Positions 7,297-27,014 of a stretch of 42,560 nt of DNA are shown one piece after another. The position numbers and the translations under genes are program-made. Where the stretch lies: the IMG/VR virus record IMGVR_UViG_3300042691_029354, positions 1-42,560 of that record, one strand, 5' to 3'. The DNA is from a virus. The notes under the pieces are model-generated. The model saw only the letters and a list, made by a program, of their open reading frames with translations, did no database searches and had not been told where the DNA came from. Every line of letters begins with the position of its first letter. Positions within the stretch are counted from its first letter, which is position 1.

Positions 7297-7599
7297 ATGC
7301 AATCTTGGAAAAACAATCTAACAACTAAACTTTCAAACGACGGTATATTTGTGGGCAAAGGCAAAGATCGGTTCACCAATATCAAAACTCAAACAATCGA
7401 AAAGAACGGTAAAAAGGTCGAAGTTACTCTTGGCCGAAATGCTCGCACCCAAAAGGTCGAAATCATCGACCACCGATGGACAGATGGTGAGCCGGAAGAT
7501 CTTATAAAGTTTATGATGACACCTATGCCATCAAATCATCCCAATACTCCATCTCCCGATCAATTGGGTCAGGAGAGGTTAGCGGATCCACACGAGTAG
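7297..7599 (+). CDS. Possible antisense-strand small protein (100 aa)
   Basis: An open frame on the plus strand fills the only gap in the minus-strand head cluster (7281-7522) and then overlaps the 3' end of the terminase gene by 77 bases. The product (MQSWKNNLTTKLSNDGIFVG) has ordinary protein-like composition for its first 75 residues: a beta-rich core with NIKTQTIEKNGKKVEVTL and an IIDHRWTDGEPEDL stretch. The tail over the terminase gene is Pro/Asn-rich and less convincing. No ribosome site is obvious (TAAACATACCAC before the ATG). It could be a real gene with its own promoter or a chance frame. Confidence 0.45.
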   Translation: MQSWKNNLTTKLSNDGIFVGKGKDRFTNIKTQTIEKNGKKVEVTLGRNARTQKVEIIDHRWTDGEPEDLIKFMMTPMPSNHPNTPSPDQLGQERLADPHE

Positions 7600-9049
7600 C
7601 ATTTGGCCGCGCCTGTTCGTACTTAGTCAACTCGCGCGGTCTATCAAGTTCCTTCAAATTAGTAATCACTTCCCAATTCCAGTTAATCTTTGCACAAGCA
7701 TAGCGTAGTGCGTCGCACAAGTCCTCGCCCACTTTATTCCCAATCAAGTAACTTTTGATCTCGTCTATCAGCAACTGATTGTCCTCGCTCTTTTCACCAA
7801 CCATAATCTTCAGCGCACCGCTTTTGAACAAAGTATTAAGTGTAGTCTCTCCAATGTCATGGCCCTTCTCGGCCTTCACAAACGACAAACCCAACCGATC
7901 TGCAACTGTTGCCAAATCCTTGGCAGCATAATCATAATATGCTTGCTGAACATTAAACCCTCGGCTCATCTCCAAAAACATCTTCACCACATCCTCTGCC
8001 GTCGTGTTAATCCCTGGCCGTCCTCTCCAGGACTTAATCACCCTGGCCTCGCTCATATCAGAATTCACACCAACCAAAATAACAGCACTAGGATGCGCCT
8101 TACCACCACTTCCATAATCAAGACCTGCGTAAACATTAGGATAATCCTCTAATTTAAAATCGCCCTGTATCACATTGCGCTTCTCATCAAAGGACTGATA
8201 AACCAATCCCTCATCTACAACAAACTTACCAAGCACACGACGCTGAACCTCGGCATCCGTCGAACATAAACTTATTGCATGCTTGATGGCCTTATCGTCC
8301 CAAGGACTAGCGCTTCCATCTTCATAGAACTTACTATCATATAGACTCACCTGCGTAACAAACGCTGGCTCCTCGCCATCCTCGCCATTCCAACGCTTTC
8401 TATCCTCAACAACCTCTTTCCAAAACTTCTGCCCTCGCGTTGCCGTAAACGCAGCATTGAAATATCCCTTCGTCGCGTTCATACGCATCAAAAGCTCGCT
8501 CATCAACTCTGCCGGAGGCTCCTCATCCAAACCCATCTCCCACACAGATCCCGACTGCAAATCCTGCGGATCCTGCTTATAAGCCTTAAACACAACATCC
8601 ACGCCAGAACGGAACACAATCTTCTCAATGAATCCGTTCTTCATCTTCTCTTCCCACCCATAGACTGGATGATCTTTCATCGAACCCTTTGGCAAAAACT
8701 GTTTCCACTTATACAAAAACTCCTGCGTGGCCACAGGAAAGCTTGGATAACCATACCAAAATGGGGTAGGCGCCTGTCCCGACGCAAGCTTTGGATACCA
8801 GATATGCCAATGCTCTGGGCTTGTGGCCCTCGTAATAAATCGCCTAATCATCGTCGAACTTTTAGACAACTGATTTGCAGCACAAAGAATATTGCGCTTG
8901 TTCATACTGTCATGAAACTTCCGCCCCCAAGTGTAGTGCTTATACAAATACAAGTGCGGCAACTCGTCGCGCTCTTTGAGCGCTTCCTCAAGCAGCCGCG
9001 CCTTCTCAGCTTTAAGTCTTACGAGTTCTTCTAGAATGTCGTCGGTCAT
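7523..9049 (-). CDS. terL: Terminase large subunit
   Basis: The motor and nuclease that cuts concatemeric DNA and pumps it through the portal. From the ATG at 9049 (AGAGGAACAG before it) the protein has 508 residues. The ATPase part has a Walker A-like AANQLSKSS at about 57-65, with Ser where Gly usually precedes Lys, and a Walker B LDEEPP at about 174-179. The RNase H-like nuclease part shows AGLDYGSGG (Asp311), YYDYAAKD (Asp373) and LCDALRYA (Asp446), the expected acidic triad. An earlier in-frame start at 9076 would lie inside the preceding small gene and is less likely. It stands next to the small terminase and portal genes. Confidence 0.92.
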   Translation of the reverse strand: MTDDILEELVRLKAEKARLLEEALKERDELPHLYLYKHYTWGRKFHDSMNKRNILCAANQLSKSSTMIRRFITRATSPEHWHIWYPKLASGQAPTPFWYGYPSFPVATQEFLYKWKQFLPKGSMKDHPVYGWEEKMKNGFIEKIVFRSGVDVVFKAYKQDPQDLQSGSVWEMGLDEEPPAELMSELLMRMNATKGYFNAAFTATRGQKFWKEVVEDRKRWNGEDGEEPAFVTQVSLYDSKFYEDGSASPWDDKAIKHAISLCSTDAEVQRRVLGKFVVDEGLVYQSFDEKRNVIQGDFKLEDYPNVYAGLDYGSGGKAHPSAVILVGVNSDMSEARVIKSWRGRPGINTTAEDVVKMFLEMSRGFNVQQAYYDYAAKDLATVADRLGLSFVKAEKGHDIGETTLNTLFKSGALKIMVGEKSEDNQLLIDEIKSYLIGNKVGEDLCDALRYACAKINWNWEVITNLKELDRPRELTKYEQARPNATRVDPLTSPDPIDREMEYWDDLMA

Positions 9050-9198
9050 CTGTTCCTCTCTATTAAAACAACACAAAGCAATTCATGTAACAACTCGTCA
9101 AACAACGCTTCTAGCTTGTCATTACCAATTTGCATCTCCAGATAATCGCGCCTTGCTTTCCTAACAAGGTTGAGTACTTGTTGGAGATTGGTGCTCAC
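9046..9198 (-). CDS. Hidden 50-aa gene between terminase-side genes
   Basis: A 50-codon frame begins with a GTG overlapping the stop of the upstream gene (GTGA) and ends with a TGA overlapping the terminase ATG (ATGA). It fills exactly what would otherwise be a 145-base gap. The product starts VSTNLQQVLNLVRKARRDYL and continues as an amphipathic helix with a Leu-rich second half (ALFDELLHELLCVVLIERNR). The double coupling argues that it is translated. No family was recognised; it could be a terminase partner or only a translational bridge. Confidence 0.6.
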   Translation of the reverse strand: MSTNLQQVLNLVRKARRDYLEMQIGNDKLEALFDELLHELLCVVLIERNR

Positions 9199-9494
9199 TT
9201 ACCCACCAACGCTTGCATCTGCTCCAAAAGCTCTCGCATCTCTTTGTTCTCCTGCTCCAGCTTTTGAATATACCCCTGGTCTTTAAGCTCCAACCGCACA
9301 GATCCAACAAGCTTAAACTTATAACTATCCGAACTTGGATCTATCTCACGCGCCAACATAGGCCCATCAGAATGAACCACAAGCAATCCCTTCTTCACCA
9401 AGTCACCGAGCTGATCCAAGATAATTTGCTGTGACTGCTGCATCACGTCCCTAATAACATCGCTGCCGTTCATAACTCCAGTACCACCAAACAT
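9195..9494 (-). CDS. Small coiled-coil protein upstream of terminase (99 aa)
   Basis: The ATG at 9494 overlaps the upstream TGA (TGATG); an in-frame GTG one codon earlier is possible. Residues 10-40 form a helix (VIRDVMQQSQQIILDQLGDL), the middle resembles a small beta hairpin, and the C-terminal 30 residues are a clear coiled coil (KLEQENKEMRELLEQMQAL). Position between small and large terminase genes suggests a packaging accessory. The function is unknown. Confidence 0.7.
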   Translation of the reverse strand: MFGGTGVMNGSDVIRDVMQQSQQIILDQLGDLVKKGLLVVHSDGPMLAREIDPSSDSYKFKLVGSVRLELKDQGYIQKLEQENKEMRELLEQMQALVGK

Positions 9495-10267
9495 CACTTC
9501 TTCTCCTCGCCTATGTAATCTATAACCTTACCCACAACCTTCGCACCAATGCTAATGTCATCGGCCTGTAACTGCTCAAGCCTTAGCTTCTGCTCCATCT
9601 CGGCTATCTTCTTCTCCAAATCACCAAGCGTTTGCCGATCCATCTTCTTGTTGCCAGAATCTATATCCTTATGAACAGTCAACTGCTTTTGCACAATGCC
9701 ACCATTGATACGCATATCCACAAACGCCGTCGCCTGAAGCACTAGCTTTGCCGCATCACTGTCCACCACAGTCTCCACCGTACCATCGTCATTCAACACC
9801 TCACGCTTAATAGGAAGTGTTAGTATCTCCTCACGGATCCTTCTTAGCCCATACATCAGCGCCTCTTGCAACTCGTTCTCGTAACTAGATGGTGGCACCA
9901 AGCAAAAAGTAAACGCCCCTGGCCTGTGCATTAGAATCGAACGCACATAATGCTCCGGCAACCCACAAAGCCCTGCCACCTTGCTAATAGAAATCGCCCT
10001 TCCAGTTATTCGAGCCGATTCAAACTCCTTCCAAAAAGCTATCCGAATCTTATACACCACTGGCTCAGGCTCAAGTCTGCGCTCAGCCTCTCGCTCCGAT
10101 AGATACAACATCTTCTTATTCACAAGCTCGCTTTTAAACACATTAGCCAAAGGTCTTGGCAATAGATTCACCAAAGACCTTGGATCCTCCTCATCAAACA
10201 ACTCTGCCGCCATTGGCAGGTCGTCCAGTGCTGGTACTGCTGGCTTATCGTCGTTTTCGTTTTGCAT
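9494..10267 (-). CDS. Putative terminase small subunit
   Basis: The start is placed at the ATG at 10267 (MQNENDDKPAVPALDDL), after an AGGGTGG site within the upstream gene. The 257-residue protein has an acidic N-terminus, a possible helix-turn-helix around residues 90-112 (ISISKVAGLCGLPEHYVRS), and a C-terminal coiled coil (LGDLEKKIAEMEQKLRLEQL) that could drive oligomerisation. These features and its place upstream of the large terminase fit a small terminase that recognises phage DNA and feeds it to the motor. The family itself was not recognised, so the call leans on gene order. Confidence 0.6.
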   Translation of the reverse strand: MQNENDDKPAVPALDDLPMAAELFDEEDPRSLVNLLPRPLANVFKSELVNKKMLYLSEREAERRLEPEPVVYKIRIAFWKEFESARITGRAISISKVAGLCGLPEHYVRSILMHRPGAFTFCLVPPSSYENELQEALMYGLRRIREEILTLPIKREVLNDDGTVETVVDSDAAKLVLQATAFVDMRINGGIVQKQLTVHKDIDSGNKKMDRQTLGDLEKKIAEMEQKLRLEQLQADDISIGAKVVGKVIDYIGEEKK

Positions 10268-10454
10268 GAACAATACCACCCTTGCCAGCAACAGAATCAA
10301 TTACCTGGCTTGCGTAAGCCGCCGCAAGCGTCTTTATGGCAGTGTCGATAACCTCGCGTGAATTGCGAAACCCATAATCCTCTTGCAGCCGCTTGATGTC
10401 CTGTAGTGTTGTCTTTGAAACACGCGTCAAAGTTGTCGATAAAATCTTAGCCAT
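10245..10454 (-). CDS. Ribbon-helix-helix type DNA-binding protein (69 aa)
   Basis: The product begins MAKILSTTLTRVSKTTLQDI, a basic strand followed by two helices (TLQDIKRLQEDYGF and SREVIDTAIKTLAAAY). This is the Arc/CopG-like layout in which a dimer of strands inserts into the major groove. The C-terminus is basic (HAKRKRR). It has no ribosome site and sits only a few bases after a candidate promoter containing GTTAACACT, so it may be near-leaderless and self-regulated. It overlaps the next gene by 23 bases. A role as late-gene or copy regulator is inference. Confidence 0.6.
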   Translation of the reverse strand: MAKILSTTLTRVSKTTLQDIKRLQEDYGFRNSREVIDTAIKTLAAAYASQVIDSVAGKGGIVHAKRKRR

Positions 10455-10495: not shown

Positions 10496-10717
10496 CTATT
10501 GTTCGCCCATGAAAAACCAAGCGCTAGCGGGCTTTCTGCTGACCGCTGGCGTTACTGGCTCAACCCTTACCATGTTGGGGTCAGTGCTAAGAACAGGCAC
10601 CTTGCTTGGCCAGGGAGCCGGTGCTGGCTGTGGGTTCTCCAGACGGCGATTACGCTCTGCTTGCATGTCTGCATAGGTTGGTTGTCCGTCAAACCATGAT
10701 AGTAGGCGATCTAGCAT
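10496..10717 (-). CDS. Small Pro-rich protein (73 aa), unknown
   Basis: The frame encodes MLDRLLSWFDGQPTYADMQA followed by a Pro-rich, probably unfolded part (ENPQPAPAPWPSKVPVL). Its start lies within the 3' end of the HNH gene (29-base overlap). No ribosome site is seen. The opposite strand is also open, but the minus-strand frame has more protein-like sequence and agrees with the direction of its neighbours. No family was recognised. Confidence 0.5.
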   Translation of the reverse strand: MLDRLLSWFDGQPTYADMQAERNRRLENPQPAPAPWPSKVPVLSTDPNMVRVEPVTPAVSRKPASAWFFMGEQ

Positions 10718-11066
10718 GCTTGTAGTTTAGCAGATTTTTTTTGTAACATGTGCGCGCGTCTGTATTTTTATAGTTTTCATATGGCGTCACCAATCTTAAG
10801 TTTTCTGGACGATTGTCAGCCTTGTTACGGTTGATATGGTCAACATACATGCCTTTTGGTTGCACTTGGTTGTTGGCAATCATCCAGATTATTCTGTGGG
10901 CTGACAACCCCCTATGTCCGACGACATAGCCATACTTACTTTGTTTGCAGTAAATCTTGGTGCCGTCCTTTTTCCAAAGGAAGCCATCGACAACGCAGAA
11001 TGTTTGCTTGAGATATTCGATATCAATCATGTTGGTGGTGTTAACATAATTGCTTGTGTTAGTCAT
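10689..11066 (-). CDS. HNH endonuclease (125 aa)
   Basis: A homing-type nuclease. Residues 57-59 (HRI) and the block VDHINRNKADN at 75-85 followed by ENLRLVTPYENYKN form the HNH beta-beta-alpha metal site. The first 50 residues contain a short domain (FLWKKDGTKIYCKQSKYG) often found before HNH motifs in phage proteins. There is no AP2 or NUMOD domain after it; the C-terminus is short and basic. It is the first gene of the leftward block, next to the terminase genes, where HNH proteins may either act in packaging or be selfish. Only weak ribosome signals precede the ATG. Confidence 0.85.
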   Translation of the reverse strand: MTNTSNYVNTTNMIDIEYLKQTFCVVDGFLWKKDGTKIYCKQSKYGYVVGHRGLSAHRIIWMIANNQVQPKGMYVDHINRNKADNRPENLRLVTPYENYKNTDARTCYKKNLLNYKHARSPTIMV

Positions 11067-11195
11067 GCTTTTTTTGTTTTTTAAATTTTATGGATGCTCT
11101 AATAGTAAACTCTTTTTTTTCATTCATGACGCTACCCCCCCTATACGGAGAGTCTGGTTCCTGCTCTCATCTGCTCGCTGTCTGGGCATCGTGAC

Positions 11196-11259
11196 CTATG
11201 GTCATGGCAACATGTGGTCATGCGTGGCTATGGTCACTAGCACATATGGTCACTAGCGC
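11196..11259. repeat. Four 16-bp iterons with TGGTCA core
   Basis: Four consecutive 16-base units start at 11196, 11212, 11228 and 11244: CTATGGTCATGGCAAC, ATGTGGTCATGCGTGG, CTATGGTCACTAGCAC and ATATGGTCACTAGCGC. Each has TGGTCA at the same phase; the last two share 13 identical bases. A degenerate fifth unit may precede them at 11180-11195. They lie about 140 bp upstream of the early promoter -10. Direct iterons of this kind usually bind a replication initiator or regulator; there are no unique spacers, so this is not CRISPR. Confidence 0.75.
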
Positions 11260-11323
11260 TAGCGATAGAGAGGGAGAGATGGCTGGCATAGCAATTGCGT
11301 TGTGACGCAAATTGCGGTCAATT

Positions 11324-11345
11324 GTGACAAAAATTGTCACTTTTT
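11324..11345 (+). terminator. Palindrome with T-run: terminator or operator
   Basis: GTGACAA (11324-11330) and TTGTCAC (11334-11340) form a 7-bp stem with an AAA loop, followed by TTTTT. This is a small intrinsic-terminator shape on the plus strand. However, it lies upstream of the early promoter and is surrounded by more TGTGAC/TGTCAC boxes (11302, 11368), so it could instead be an operator. If it is a terminator it would insulate early genes from rightward read-through. Confidence 0.4.
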
Positions 11346-11376
11346 CGTGTCAGCTCTGCTTTACGCTGTCACCACA

Positions 11377-11404
11377 CTGGCATGGCGTTTGCTTGTAATA
11401 TAAT
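11377..11404 (+). promoter_or_regulatory. Candidate early promoter
   Basis: An exact TATAAT at 11399-11404 follows CTGGCA (11377-11382, 4 of 6 consensus) after 16 bases. Transcription would begin near 11411, giving a leader of about 30 bases that ends in AGAAGGAGA before the ATG at 11441. It is the only strong -10 in the divergent region and is oriented towards the long early gene chain. Confidence 0.6.
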
Positions 11405-11440: not shown

Positions 11441-11650
11441 ATGAGAAACAACGCTGAAACCATACTGAAACTTAGGCGGACCCTTGTAGAGGTTGACAAC
11501 GCGCTGGAAGAGATACCAGTCACAGCGCCCGACGATGCTCAAGGCAAGCTCGAATTTCTCTCCAAGGTACACGCAGCCCAATGGCGCGCGCTGTACGTAC
11601 TGGAGCGCCTAGACGACATGACCTCTAGAATATTGGAGCCGCGATCATGA
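11441..11650 (+). CDS. First early protein (69 aa), unknown
   Basis: This gene follows the best promoter and ribosome site (AGAAGGAG) of the control region. The product MRNNAETILKLRRTLVEVDN is a charged, all-helical protein without membrane segments, with a second helix (KVHAAQWRALYVLERLDDM). The stop overlaps the ATG of a small membrane protein gene (ATGA). First-expressed small phage proteins often act on host machinery or defence, but nothing in the sequence shows this here. Confidence 0.75.
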   Translation: MRNNAETILKLRRTLVEVDNALEEIPVTAPDDAQGKLEFLSKVHAAQWRALYVLERLDDMTSRILEPRS

Positions 11651-11772: not shown

Positions 11773-11843
11773 TCTTTGGACTTGCATCTCTACTTGTTTG
11801 GATCGGCTTCCTGCAATTGCTCGGCGAGTTAAACGATAGATAA
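11769..11843 (+). CDS. Membrane micropeptide (24 aa)
   Basis: ATG at 11769 overlaps the previous stop (ATGA). The product MIFGLASLLVWIGFLQLL plus a six-residue polar tail is one hydrophobic helix. It forms the last of three coupled genes before the long non-coding block. The small size makes the call uncertain, but start-stop overlaps on this chain are a consistent feature. Confidence 0.45.
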   Translation: MIFGLASLLVWIGFLQLLGELNDR

Positions 11844-11989
11844 TACCATACAGAAATCGAAAAGCGGCGATGCCCTTAAAAAGCGGCGCTTATGACGCAG
11901 CGAGACAAAATGAAGCGGCAGCCGCTTTGCCGCAGCGGCGTTGGCAACGCAGTAGGTTATGTTGAATGATATCAACAAGATAAGCCTTG

Positions 11990-12089
11990 TGACGCAGAGC
12001 GCATTGATAAAAAAGAGAGTATATAGAAGAATAATAAAAAAAAATAATAATTCTAACAACTTACTCCCTCTTTTTTCTTGACGCAGAGC
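11990..12089. repeat. TGACGCAGAGC direct repeats flanking an A/T-rich stretch
   Basis: TGACGCAGAGC occurs at 11990-12000 and 12079-12089 in the same orientation. The first eight bases also occur at 11893-11900, and a TGACGCAA variant at 11303-11310. Between the two full copies is an A/T-rich run with poly-A and AATAATAATT. The arrangement resembles initiator boxes around a DNA unwinding element. Confidence 0.55.
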
Positions 12090-12255
12090 ATGCCGCGCAT
12101 CGCCGCTTTTTGAAAGTCGCATATAATTTTGTAAGTAGTTGAAATTAGGTTCAGCTCGATTTTAAATAGGTTTGAGAGAAGATTTTTTAGTATTATATCA
12201 AGCGGCGAGGCGACATAGCGGCGATACCATACAAAACTAAAAAAAACTTGTAAAA

Positions 12256-12289
12256 AACACTTGCAAGTGTTAACAACTTGTGAGATAAC
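12256..12289 (+). promoter_or_regulatory. 16-bp palindromic operator over a candidate promoter
   Basis: AACACTTGCAAGTGTT (12256-12271) is a perfect 16-bp palindrome. It overlaps TTGCAA (12261-12266), a 4-of-6 match to a -35, which stands 17 bases before GATAAC (12284-12289), a 4-of-6 match to a -10. AGTGTTAAC (12266-12274), shared with two other control regions, extends from it. A dimeric regulator binding here would control the gene at 12331. Confidence 0.45.
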
Positions 12290-12306
12290 AACAACAGCCC
12301 ATAGAG

Positions 12307-12321
12307 GCAGATAGAAGGAGA
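12307..12321 (+). repeat. 15-bp leader repeat GCAGATAGAAGGAGA, copy 2
   Basis: Exact copy of the leader segment at 11418-11432. It supplies the AGAAGGAGA ribosome site of the gene at 12331. Confidence 0.6.
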
Positions 12322-12330
12322 ACAAATAAA

Positions 12331-21581: not shown

Positions 21582-22469
21582 ATGAATTTATTTGAAGAGA
21601 AGTCGCAAGACGAACTAAAAGCCGAGTGGCATAAGAAAAGATCAATGGGAATTGGTGGCAGTGACATAGGAGTTGTTATGGGCGACTCTCCTTATAAGAC
21701 TCGCTACCAGCTTTGGCTTGAGAAGACCAAGCGCATACAGGCAGAAGATATAAGTGGTAAGTTTCACGTACAGCGTGGAGTTATGAATGAGCCAGTAGCA
21801 AGGGCTAAGTTTGAAGAAATGAGTCAGATGAGATTTGAGCCACGCTCATGGGTTATAGATGGCAAGGAATATCTTCGCTGTAATGACGACGGGTGGAATG
21901 ACCAGTTCAAGGCGATGTTAGAAATTAAAACGATGGGTGCTCGACCACACGCAGATGTGGCCAACGGAATTGTGCCACCACATTATCTTCAGCAGCTTCA
22001 ATACAATATGGGAATAGCAAAAGCCAATATTGGTTATTTCATTAGCTATCGTCCAGAGGATGGAACTCTTTATGCCGTGACAGTTCATCCAGACCTTGCG
22101 CTACAAGAAAAGCTTATGCAAGCTGCTGAAAAGTTTTGGCTTGACCATGTTATAGGAGATACGCCACCAGAATTAACTGATGGTGATTATCAGAACTGTC
22201 TTGATCCAGACTTTGAGGACGCATCAGAGCGCTATAAGCAGATTAAAGCGCAGATAAAACTTTTAGAAGAAGAGATGGAAGAAGTTGAGACAAGGCTTCA
22301 AGGCTTCCTAGGTAATGCTGGAGCTATTCGACAGAATGGATTACTAATCCAGAGAATTGTACGCAAAGGAAATGTTGAGTACACAAAGATTCCAGAGCTG
22401 CAAGGAGTGGATCTAGAGAAGTACCGTAAGCCGTCAACGACATATATAGCCATTAAAGGAGAAAGATAA
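21582..22469 (+). CDS. YqaJ/lambda-type exonuclease
   Basis: The ATG at 21582 has AGAGGA 11 bases upstream. The 295-residue protein has GIGGSDIG (residues 23-30), the NEP pair near 69-71, NDD near 101-103, and LEIKTMG (113-119), which are the metal and catalytic residues of the YqaJ/lambda exonuclease fold. QLQYNMGIA then matches the usual family helix, with the third conserved motif. A coiled coil (IKLLEEEMEEVETRLQ) follows. It would make 3' single strands for the Sak4-like annealing protein. Confidence 0.9.
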   Translation: MNLFEEKSQDELKAEWHKKRSMGIGGSDIGVVMGDSPYKTRYQLWLEKTKRIQAEDISGKFHVQRGVMNEPVARAKFEEMSQMRFEPRSWVIDGKEYLRCNDDGWNDQFKAMLEIKTMGARPHADVANGIVPPHYLQQLQYNMGIAKANIGYFISYRPEDGTLYAVTVHPDLALQEKLMQAAEKFWLDHVIGDTPPELTDGDYQNCLDPDFEDASERYKQIKAQIKLLEEEMEEVETRLQGFLGNAGAIRQNGLLIQRIVRKGNVEYTKIPELQGVDLEKYRKPSTTYIAIKGER

Positions 22470-24518: not shown

Positions 24519-24862
24519 TTAAAACAACAACTGAAAGAACTATTACTGAAACACGTTGGGTTTTGAGACGCGAAGACTTTGGTGAAATTTTAAAAGATCT
24601 TGGCGATGATTACCAGATTGAAGATATGTCAAAGTTTTACGCAAAAAGACTTGAAGACAATGAAGTAGAAAAGAAGCTATGGGAAAGTGGGAACAAGTTT
24701 AGAGCTATGATGTTTATGTCTCCATTCCATCATGTTCGTGCAAACTATACACTACTCTGCGGTTTAATTGGAAGACTCTGGTTTAATGAAGGCGATAGCC
24801 TACTTAAAAAAGAAGGAGTTTATACAATTGAATCTGCTACTCTTGGTCCCGAAGAACAGTAA
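24515..24862 (+). CDS. Last gene of early chain (115 aa), unknown
   Basis: The product MIKTTTERTITETRWVLRRE is soluble, with SKFYAKRLEDNEVEKKLW as a charged helix and a His/Phe-rich part (MMFMSPFHHVRANYTLLCGL). It ends 26 bases inside the 3' end of the convergent glycosyltransferase gene. No terminator hairpin is evident at this junction, so the two opposing transcripts probably overlap. Function unknown. Confidence 0.7.
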   Translation: MIKTTTERTITETRWVLRREDFGEILKDLGDDYQIEDMSKFYAKRLEDNEVEKKLWESGNKFRAMMFMSPFHHVRANYTLLCGLIGRLWFNEGDSLLKKEGVYTIESATLGPEEQ

Positions 24863-26324
24863 ACGACACCCAATAATTGTAGGATGCAAAGAACACCGCT
24901 GGCAGGAAGTTATACCAAGGATAGGTGTTTGAGTGATAGATTGCAGCTCCAATAACCACGGCAGTTGATAAGCTTACCCAATAAAACATAAGAGTACGAA
25001 ACGCGTAGAACCTACCCACAGGCTTAGACTTGTTGCCAGTTGGAGACCACGGCATAAGGTCTCCTCTAAGCTTATCCACCAAAGCAAACAAGTGCGCGTA
25101 GTAGGTTATCATCCTTGCCCTCGGTGCATACCAGCCAAAGGGAGCCGTTGTCCAAATAGCCATGAATATAAGCCCAAATACGAACGATGGAATTGAGAAG
25201 AAAGCATTGTACCAAAGCACATACTCTGGAGCAAACAGCATCAAAACAAGTGATGGTACTATAGTTAAGAAAAGCCCTAGAGCCGTTGCTATGTAGTAGA
25301 GCATTCCAGAGAGGAAGCAAATCTTTTGCATGAAAGTAAGCTTGGATAGCCAAAACTCTTTGTTTAAAAACAGTGTAATTGAACCCATAGCCCAGCGGTA
25401 TTGTTGCGTGAAAAACTGTGGCATGGCATCTGGGCACACACCTTTAGCAAGATTTATGGGGAGATACCTAACCTTCCACCCACCTAGCATGACGTTAAAG
25501 CCAGTGTGAACATCTTCTGAGTAACCAATTTCAGCAGTTCCACCAAACGGAGCAAGAGCCTCTCGTCTATAGACAGCACAAGTTCCGACACAAATAGCAC
25601 CATCAAAGCGGTCACGGTTTACTTGGATTAAGCGATAGAAAAGTTCTTGAATATAGCCAGCACCTTGCTCAACCCATGTTTGCTCTTTTGCGACAGTAAA
25701 GTATTGAGGCGTTTGAACAATGGCAATGCTTTTGTCTTGGTGAAAGTATGGAATAGTTTCCTCGATAAAATCAGGACGTGGGCAAAAGTCAGCGTCGAAT
25801 ATTATAATAAACTCACCGCGAGTTAGATTAAAAGCATATCGAAGGTTTCCTGCCTTTTTAAGAACTCCTCTGTTAGGTCTTAAAATATACTTGAACCCAA
25901 ACTCATAAGCTGCTTGCTCAACCTCTGTGCGTCCAGAATCATCGAGAACATAAACCGACACAGGTCCATACCATTTTAATTTTGAAACATACTTGTAAGT
26001 ATTCCTGAGTAGTTCAATTGGCTCACCAGCGCATGGCAGAAAAATGTCTATCGAGCAACTTCTATCGAAGTCTTTGATAAGCTTTTGGTGTTTGTCGAAA
26101 TCAAAGTCACGACCAAGGAATCCTATGAAGTAGGATATTCCAAGATAGACTGTCATAAGAAGTGCGAAGAACCCAAACCACCAGAATGATGGATGGGCTG
26201 ATACGAACAACCACATGCCAGCGCACAACGAGAAGTATCCGATCAGTCCTATAGAGTACAAAAAGTACCTATTGGTTTTAAGATACGAATACTTCTCAGC
26301 ATCCGTTGGTGGCGCTGGCAGCAT
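24837..26324 (-). CDS. Cellulose-synthase-like processive glycosyltransferase (GT2)
   Basis: Inner-membrane polysaccharide synthase. From the ATG at 26324 (495 residues) there are two N-terminal transmembrane helices (about 20-70), then a GT2 domain with VLDDSGR (127-133), KAGNL (157-161), FDADFCP (176-182), the acceptor motif QTP (204-206), GTCAV (247-251), catalytic SED (269-271) and QQYRW (307-311), the Q-x-x-R-W signature of cellulose, chitin and hyaluronan synthases. Four further membrane helices follow. There is no PilZ domain as in BcsA, so c-di-GMP control is not expected. It overlaps no coding partner except 26 bases of the convergent gene and lies 2 bases after its upstream partner. 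Substrate unknown. Confidence 0.92.
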   Translation of the reverse strand: MLPAPPTDAEKYSYLKTNRYFLYSIGLIGYFSLCAGMWLFVSAHPSFWWFGFFALLMTVYLGISYFIGFLGRDFDFDKHQKLIKDFDRSCSIDIFLPCAGEPIELLRNTYKYVSKLKWYGPVSVYVLDDSGRTEVEQAAYEFGFKYILRPNRGVLKKAGNLRYAFNLTRGEFIIIFDADFCPRPDFIEETIPYFHQDKSIAIVQTPQYFTVAKEQTWVEQGAGYIQELFYRLIQVNRDRFDGAICVGTCAVYRREALAPFGGTAEIGYSEDVHTGFNVMLGGWKVRYLPINLAKGVCPDAMPQFFTQQYRWAMGSITLFLNKEFWLSKLTFMQKICFLSGMLYYIATALGLFLTIVPSLVLMLFAPEYVLWYNAFFSIPSFVFGLIFMAIWTTAPFGWYAPRARMITYYAHLFALVDKLRGDLMPWSPTGNKSKPVGRFYAFRTLMFYWVSLSTAVVIGAAIYHSNTYPWYNFLPAVFFASYNYWVSFTVLRDQE

Positions 26325-26326
26325 GA

Positions 26327-26671
26327 CTACCAAATCTTGTAGGTAAATTTAACGTGTACGTTGTGTTGGAACTTCTGATAAGGAAGAACCAAGAGAGCTG
26401 TGTATCCAGGAGAAATGGTTAGTTTGTCCCAGTACAAATCAAGATCGTGTTTGCTGGTGAGCCAGTGAACGCCGCCTTTTAAAACAGGCTGCTCTCCGTA
26501 TCCAGTCCAACCGTTGTAGGCAATGTGTCCTTGAATAAGTGGCTCATAGATTCCAAGTCCAATCATAGGAGTAACTTTATCTTCACCAAGCCAAAAGTTG
26601 GGTTGCAAAGTAAGTTTTCCTGAGGCCATTGCAGTTGTTGAGAGTGTTAAAAATAAAAATAGATTTCTCAT
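26327..26671 (-). CDS. Small exported, outer-membrane-like protein (114 aa)
   Basis: The N-terminus MRNLFLFLTLSTTAMASGKL is a signal peptide with probable cleavage after AMA or ASG. The remaining roughly 95 residues alternate polar and aromatic residues in short strands (KLTLQPNFWLGEDKV, HIAYNGWTGYGEQP, SPGYTALLVLPYQKF) and end with an aromatic residue (YKIW), as outer-membrane barrels do. It is too short for a standard 8-strand barrel unless it oligomerises. GGAGG lies 5 bases before the ATG. Its place just upstream of the synthase suggests it exports or holds the polymer, or modifies the envelope. Confidence 0.65.
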   Translation of the reverse strand: MRNLFLFLTLSTTAMASGKLTLQPNFWLGEDKVTPMIGLGIYEPLIQGHIAYNGWTGYGEQPVLKGGVHWLTSKHDLDLYWDKLTISPGYTALLVLPYQKFQHNVHVKFTYKIW

Positions 26672-26750: not shown

Positions 26751-27014
26751 ATGTTGTACCTTATGGATGTAATAGAAGTTCCTAGAGAAGATCCAAATAT
26801 ATTGGTCATAAAGATTGACCTTAGAACACCTTGGTATGCTCTTTTTGAGCAAATTGAGCGCAAGATTATCACCGACACACTAAAAGCCAATGGGAACAAA
26901 ATCGGTGTCGCTGCGGATACTCTTAAGATAAATCGCACCACGCTACATGAGAAAGTAAAAAAGCTAGGAATACCTAGACGTAAGCGTTTTAAAAACACAC
27001 TTAGGAAGGAGTAA
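26751..27014 (+). CDS. Fis/NtrC-C-terminal type HTH protein (87 aa)
   Basis: Residues about 27-77 contain LFEQIERKIITDTLKANGN, then KIGVAADTLKINRTTLHEKV, the Fis-type helix-turn-helix found at the C-terminus of NtrC-like activators; the 'L-x-x-NRTTL-x-x-K-x-x-x-L-G-I' ending is characteristic. There is no sigma54-interaction ATPase, so it is a stand-alone DNA-binding domain. Starts at 26751 or 26763 lack a ribosome site. It is divergent from the glycosyltransferase cassette (80-base gap), so it may regulate that cassette. Confidence 0.8.
   Translation: MLYLMDVIEVPREDPNILVIKIDLRTPWYALFEQIERKIITDTLKANGNKIGVAADTLKINRTTLHEKVKKLGIPRRKRFKNTLRKE

Follow-up and report, generated by a model that had tools for sequence, protein, structure and literature searches.

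Which process is served by an evenly spaced set of short repeats that lies between two divergent gene blocks of a phage genome? The window, i.e. the whole stretch of DNA analyzed, is the 42,560-base IMG/VR virus record IMGVR_UViG_3300042691_029354, which represents an uncultured bacterial virus. Its leftward block starts with an HNH endonuclease gene (10689–11066, minus strand), followed by two small open reading frames, a probable small terminase gene (TerS; 9494–10300) assigned by position alone, the gene encoding the large terminase subunit (TerL; 7523–9076, minus strand) and that of a portal-like protein. The first gene of the rightward early block (11441–11650, plus strand) encodes a protein of 69 aa with only a weak sub-threshold NCBIfam match and none at E≤0.001. 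The same block also encodes Sak4, a DUF669 protein, a helicase, a Prim-Pol protein and a RecE-type exonuclease. The two blocks are separated by 374 non-coding bp, and the repeats do lie inside this divergent region, as the first-pass annotation had stated. A possible 22-codon open reading frame (MNEKKEFTIRASIKFKKQKKHD; 11060–11128, minus strand) is located directly before the HNH start codon and could encode a leader peptide. Elsewhere in the window, a glycosyltransferase or cellulose-synthase-like membrane protein is encoded at 24837–26333, which is unusual for a phage of this size.

The array consists of four 16-bp direct repeats of the form TRTGGTCAY plus 7 variable bases (11197–11260, plus strand), with units starting at 11197 (TATGGTCATGGCAACA), 11213 (TGTGGTCATGCGTGGC), 11229 (TATGGTCACTAGCACA) and 11245 (TATGGTCACTAGCGCT). 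The four units, exact 16-base phase and constant core described previously were readily recovered, with TGGTCA at 11199, 11215, 11231 and 11247. The weaker fifth unit is likewise present as a degenerate in-phase copy (TCTGGGCATCGTGACC; 11181–11196, plus strand) with TGGGCA at 11183, matching 5 of the 6 core bases, and the next in-phase positions on either side of these five units match just 2–3 of the 6. Direct reading also revealed an inverted repeat, GTGACC-TAT-GGTCAT (11191–11205), formed together with the first good unit. All four cores are perfect and the remaining bases of each unit have diverged; judged from the sequence, this pattern argues for selection on the core rather than recent duplication. 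The GC fraction across the array is 0.53–0.55. A hairpin or other strand structure was rejected (fold z-score of 0.01), as were a coding repeat, since 16 is not a multiple of 3, and an Rfam element or tRNA.

We then considered how unusual such an arrangement is. Within the window, TGGTCA is the sole 6-mer with at least 4 in-phase copies (periods 8–60), and none of 340 first-order Markov simulations contained such an array. Real viral DNA provides a harsher control than Markov simulation: among periods of 8–40, 11 arrays were found in 849 kb of other viral contigs (approximately 1 per 77 kb), several of them coding or microsatellite, and arrays of this type are therefore uncommon but not rare. 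The array escaped Tandem Repeats Finder (TRF), as its units differ too much outside the core. The TGGTCA core shows no genome-wide enrichment (26 copies versus 19.7 expected), and the window contains no other stretch whose similarity to the full unit exceeds chance.

The repeats had been described as lying upstream of the early promoter. A promoter-like site, CTGGCA-N16-TATAAT (11377–11404, plus strand), followed by a strong ribosome-binding site (AGAAGGAG), is indeed present to the right. However, the early −10 box is 139 bp away and the start codon of the first leftward gene 131 bp away. With distances so similar on the two sides, the array cannot be assigned to the early promoter in particular. 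On the leftward side of the divergent region, no convincing sigma-70 promoter was found. Just upstream of the early promoter-like site are two operator-like, dyad-like sites (TTGTGACNNAAATTG) at 11300 and 11322, 22 bp apart (11300–11343, plus strand), the second of which contains a perfect 17-bp palindrome (GTGACAAAAATTGTCAC; 11324–11340, arms of 7 and spacer of 3). GTCAC/GTGAC half-sites form a cluster at 11191–11372, with 7 of the 49 in the window falling within 190 bp. No other 5-mer of the genome is so strongly enriched at a local scale, and the array units themselves contribute to the cluster, although 1 of 30 shuffles gave one nearly as extreme.

Our preferred reading, to which we assign slightly less than an even chance, is that the array comprises operator-like sites for a sequence-specific DNA-binding protein affecting one or both of the divergent promoters. 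Control elements built in this way are commonplace in viruses, and direct-repeat operators are established in bacterial promoters, e.g. that of RptR (PMC12255303). The exact phase absent from simulations, the perfect cores, the location between opposite blocks, the promoter-like and ribosome-binding sites on the early side and the GTCAC/GTGAC clustering at the same place all count in favor of this reading. Against it count the 139 bp to the early −10 box, which is far for a simple repressor, the lack of a convincing leftward sigma-70 promoter and the single shuffle that approached the 5-mer cluster. We infer protein binding, its transcriptional effect and the promoter served as follows. Protein molecules would occupy the GGTCAY cores in 16-bp steps. 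As had been calculated correctly before, 16 bp corresponds to about 1.5 helical turns, and neighboring proteins would thus sit on opposite DNA faces with every second unit in register (32 bp, about 3 turns), which could allow the proteins to assemble along the array into a short filament or a wrapped complex. Either repression or activation of one or both divergent promoters by this complex would follow, probably in concert with the GTCAC/GTGAC dyads beside the early promoter. The region would then be the single control region dividing the leftward packaging and structural block from the rightward early block.

The binding protein may be a phage-encoded Fis-type helix-turn-helix (HTH) protein, a ribbon-helix-helix (RHH)-like protein or a host regulator. 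An HTH protein and an RHH protein had both been suggested. The former suggestion holds insofar as the phage encodes a Fis-type (HTH_8) DNA-binding protein (26751–27014, plus strand; E = 4e-10), the only small DNA-binding regulator with profile support, but nothing ties it to the array. The latter referred to a 69-aa protein (10245–10454, minus strand) with an RHH-like pattern by eye. It matched no RHH entry in Pfam, NCBIfam or among solved structures, and no RHH_1 even at E≤10, and its single-sequence structure model was of low confidence; an RHH binder was therefore rejected as an established fact. An HTH fold was also rejected for an 84-aa protein encoded at 22469, whose model is not a clear HTH. 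Overall, the first-pass interpretation of the array is partly supported.

Known regulatory systems offer partial parallels. In RptR, three 9-bp direct repeats are found in a bacterial promoter, two of them overlapping the −10 box region (PMC12255303). The phage array is similar in being a short tandem motif in a promoter region, read as modular binding sites, but it has four units at 16 bp, a different sequence and a distance of 139 bp to the −10 box. Lambdoid CI/Cro operators share with it a control region between divergent blocks and, beside the early promoter, a 17-bp palindrome. On the other hand, the array is made of direct repeats rather than dyads and no CI/Cro gene adjoins it, the neighbors being the HNH gene and that of the 69-aa early protein without a match at E≤0.001, instead of a CI/Cro-type HTH as in lambdoid immunity regions. 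With regard to sites of Fis/NtrC-type regulators, the HTH_8 protein is encoded by the phage and the 17-bp palindrome is present in the region.

In cos phages such as HK97 and lambda, an HNH gene typically lies beside the terminase genes, with repeated terminase sites nearby. Since HNH and terminase genes begin the leftward block here, in the order described above, a real rival to operator sites is that the repeats are recognized by the terminase, as cosB- or pac-like sites to which the small subunit encoded just to the left would bind; we rank this next, albeit as unlikely. Like lambda cosB or phage pac, the array has repeated sites in the neighborhood of terminase and HNH genes, but no sequence relationship to them is known, and no physical end of the genome was found there, in a record that lacks an exact end overlap and whose ends are arbitrary or unknown. 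Moreover, the TerS gene is about 0.9 kb away, with the HNH gene in between. Ranked below packaging, and more doubtful, is a replication role, in which the repeats would belong to the phage origin and an initiator, for example the Prim-Pol protein, would bind them. The cumulative GC skew reaches its minimum near 10.6 kb, but this coincides with the switch in gene direction and so does not distinguish between the two causes. Iterons of replication origins have a period of about 17–22 bp. Like plasmid (PMC4980987) and lambda-type iterons, the array has in-register direct repeats close to genes for replication (Prim-Pol, helicase, Sak4 and RecE, all encoded in the early block next to it), but its period is 16 bp, no AT-rich unwinding segment adjoins it at the GC fraction given above and TTATCCACA DnaA boxes are missing. 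The longest non-coding stretch (11773–12330, 557 bp), located 0.6–1.0 kb from the array, fits an origin better. It holds 6 of the 8 AGCGGCG copies in the window and 3 of 3 TGACGCAG, as well as inverted copies, and these clustered GC-rich repeats surround an AT-rich core around 12020–12060 (40 bp at 10% GC). Given this more origin-like layout, the replication role suggested earlier for the array appears less likely there than at 11773–12330.

Alternatively, the repeats could be a neutral or transient tandem duplication with no binding protein. In-phase arrays do occur in other viral DNA at the frequency reported above, some of them in repeat-rich regions, but perfect cores among otherwise diverged units are the pattern expected from selection on the core, and we consider neutrality improbable, placing it behind the replication proposal. 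Far less probable than any of these is a partition (centromere-like) site to which, in a plasmid-like phage, an RHH-type protein would bind. RHH centromere proteins typically use short direct repeats and an RHH-like sequence is encoded nearby, yet that protein lacks a profile match, and no ParA- or ParM-like gene and no integrase or other lysogeny gene were recognized among the proteins scanned.

Having weighed these alternatives, we return to the operator-like reading and to the occurrence of similar arrays elsewhere. A scan of viral and bacterial collections for three TGGTCA-N10 units yielded mainly microsatellites and unrelated tandem repeats. With free spacing, three copies of TATGGTCA were found in 73 contigs, about half of which have spacings in multiples of 3, mostly within long open reading frames, and these are probably coding repeats. 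No array was found in 692 bacterial genomes, a result that is uninformative given so few bases. Arrays of TATGGTCAC were present in other viral contigs (L003, L215, L216, L217, L226, L259 and L273), at 16-bp spacing in L003 and L216 and at mixed or partly 16-bp spacing in L215 and L217, and 10-bp steps were seen in about a dozen others. The contigs with mostly 10-bp steps (L226, L233, L238, L241, L245, L249, L259, L263, L270, L273, L276 and L278) often mix TATGGTCAC with TATGGCAAC or TATCGTCAC variants and are mostly unrelated to each other, except that L241, L263 and L278 share genes. In L216 (2941–2965), two TATGGTCAC copies 16 bp apart are located between divergent HTH_3 (CI/Cro-like) genes, near one start codon, and the arrays of L259 and L273 also lie between leftward and rightward genes. 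These contigs thus resemble the phage array in the 9-bp core and, in some cases, in the divergent location, but differ in their mostly 10-bp spacing and have no genes in common. Because they were selected by the motif itself without a scrambled-motif control and no common neighbor gene family was found, they support just a weak claim of recurrence and are suggestive only. A broader idea is that TATGGTCAC arrays with 10- or 16-bp steps recur as a control element among environmental phages that are otherwise unrelated, the present array being one case, and that their reader is either a family of phage DNA-binding proteins not yet described or a conserved factor of the host. We give this a low probability, just below that of neutral duplication. 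Two further kinds of repeats were noted. Arrays of TATGGTCA at about 22 bp lie inside an initiator-like gene in L234 (7934–7985) and L257 (4477–4527), where the scanned set gave HTH_36 matches, and recall lambda O iterons. In Rhodopirellula-like (Planctomycetes) genomes (L102, L117, L156 and L166), tandem 16-bp repeats of the GGTGGTCAAAAAATGG type recur at numerous sites.

No close relatives of the phage were found in the collections searched (cultured phages and IMG/VR). Among cultured phages, blastn with the region gave no close relative, blastn with the array itself gave nothing convincing, and tblastn with the primase, TerL, portal, helicase and RecE proteins gave just remote helicase and RecE matches and one TerL at 29%. 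In IMG/VR, scans with Sak4, the 240-aa early protein and the helicase, and with helicase and TerL alignments, reached 25–33% identity at best, and no syntenic control region was seen among the matches.

In summary, the array points to where the control region of this phage, which has almost no sequence relatives, probably lies. Its four cores are a compact, testable target that can be scrambled without touching any gene. If the TATGGTCAC motif is truly common to phages, it would point to an unrecognized phage regulator.
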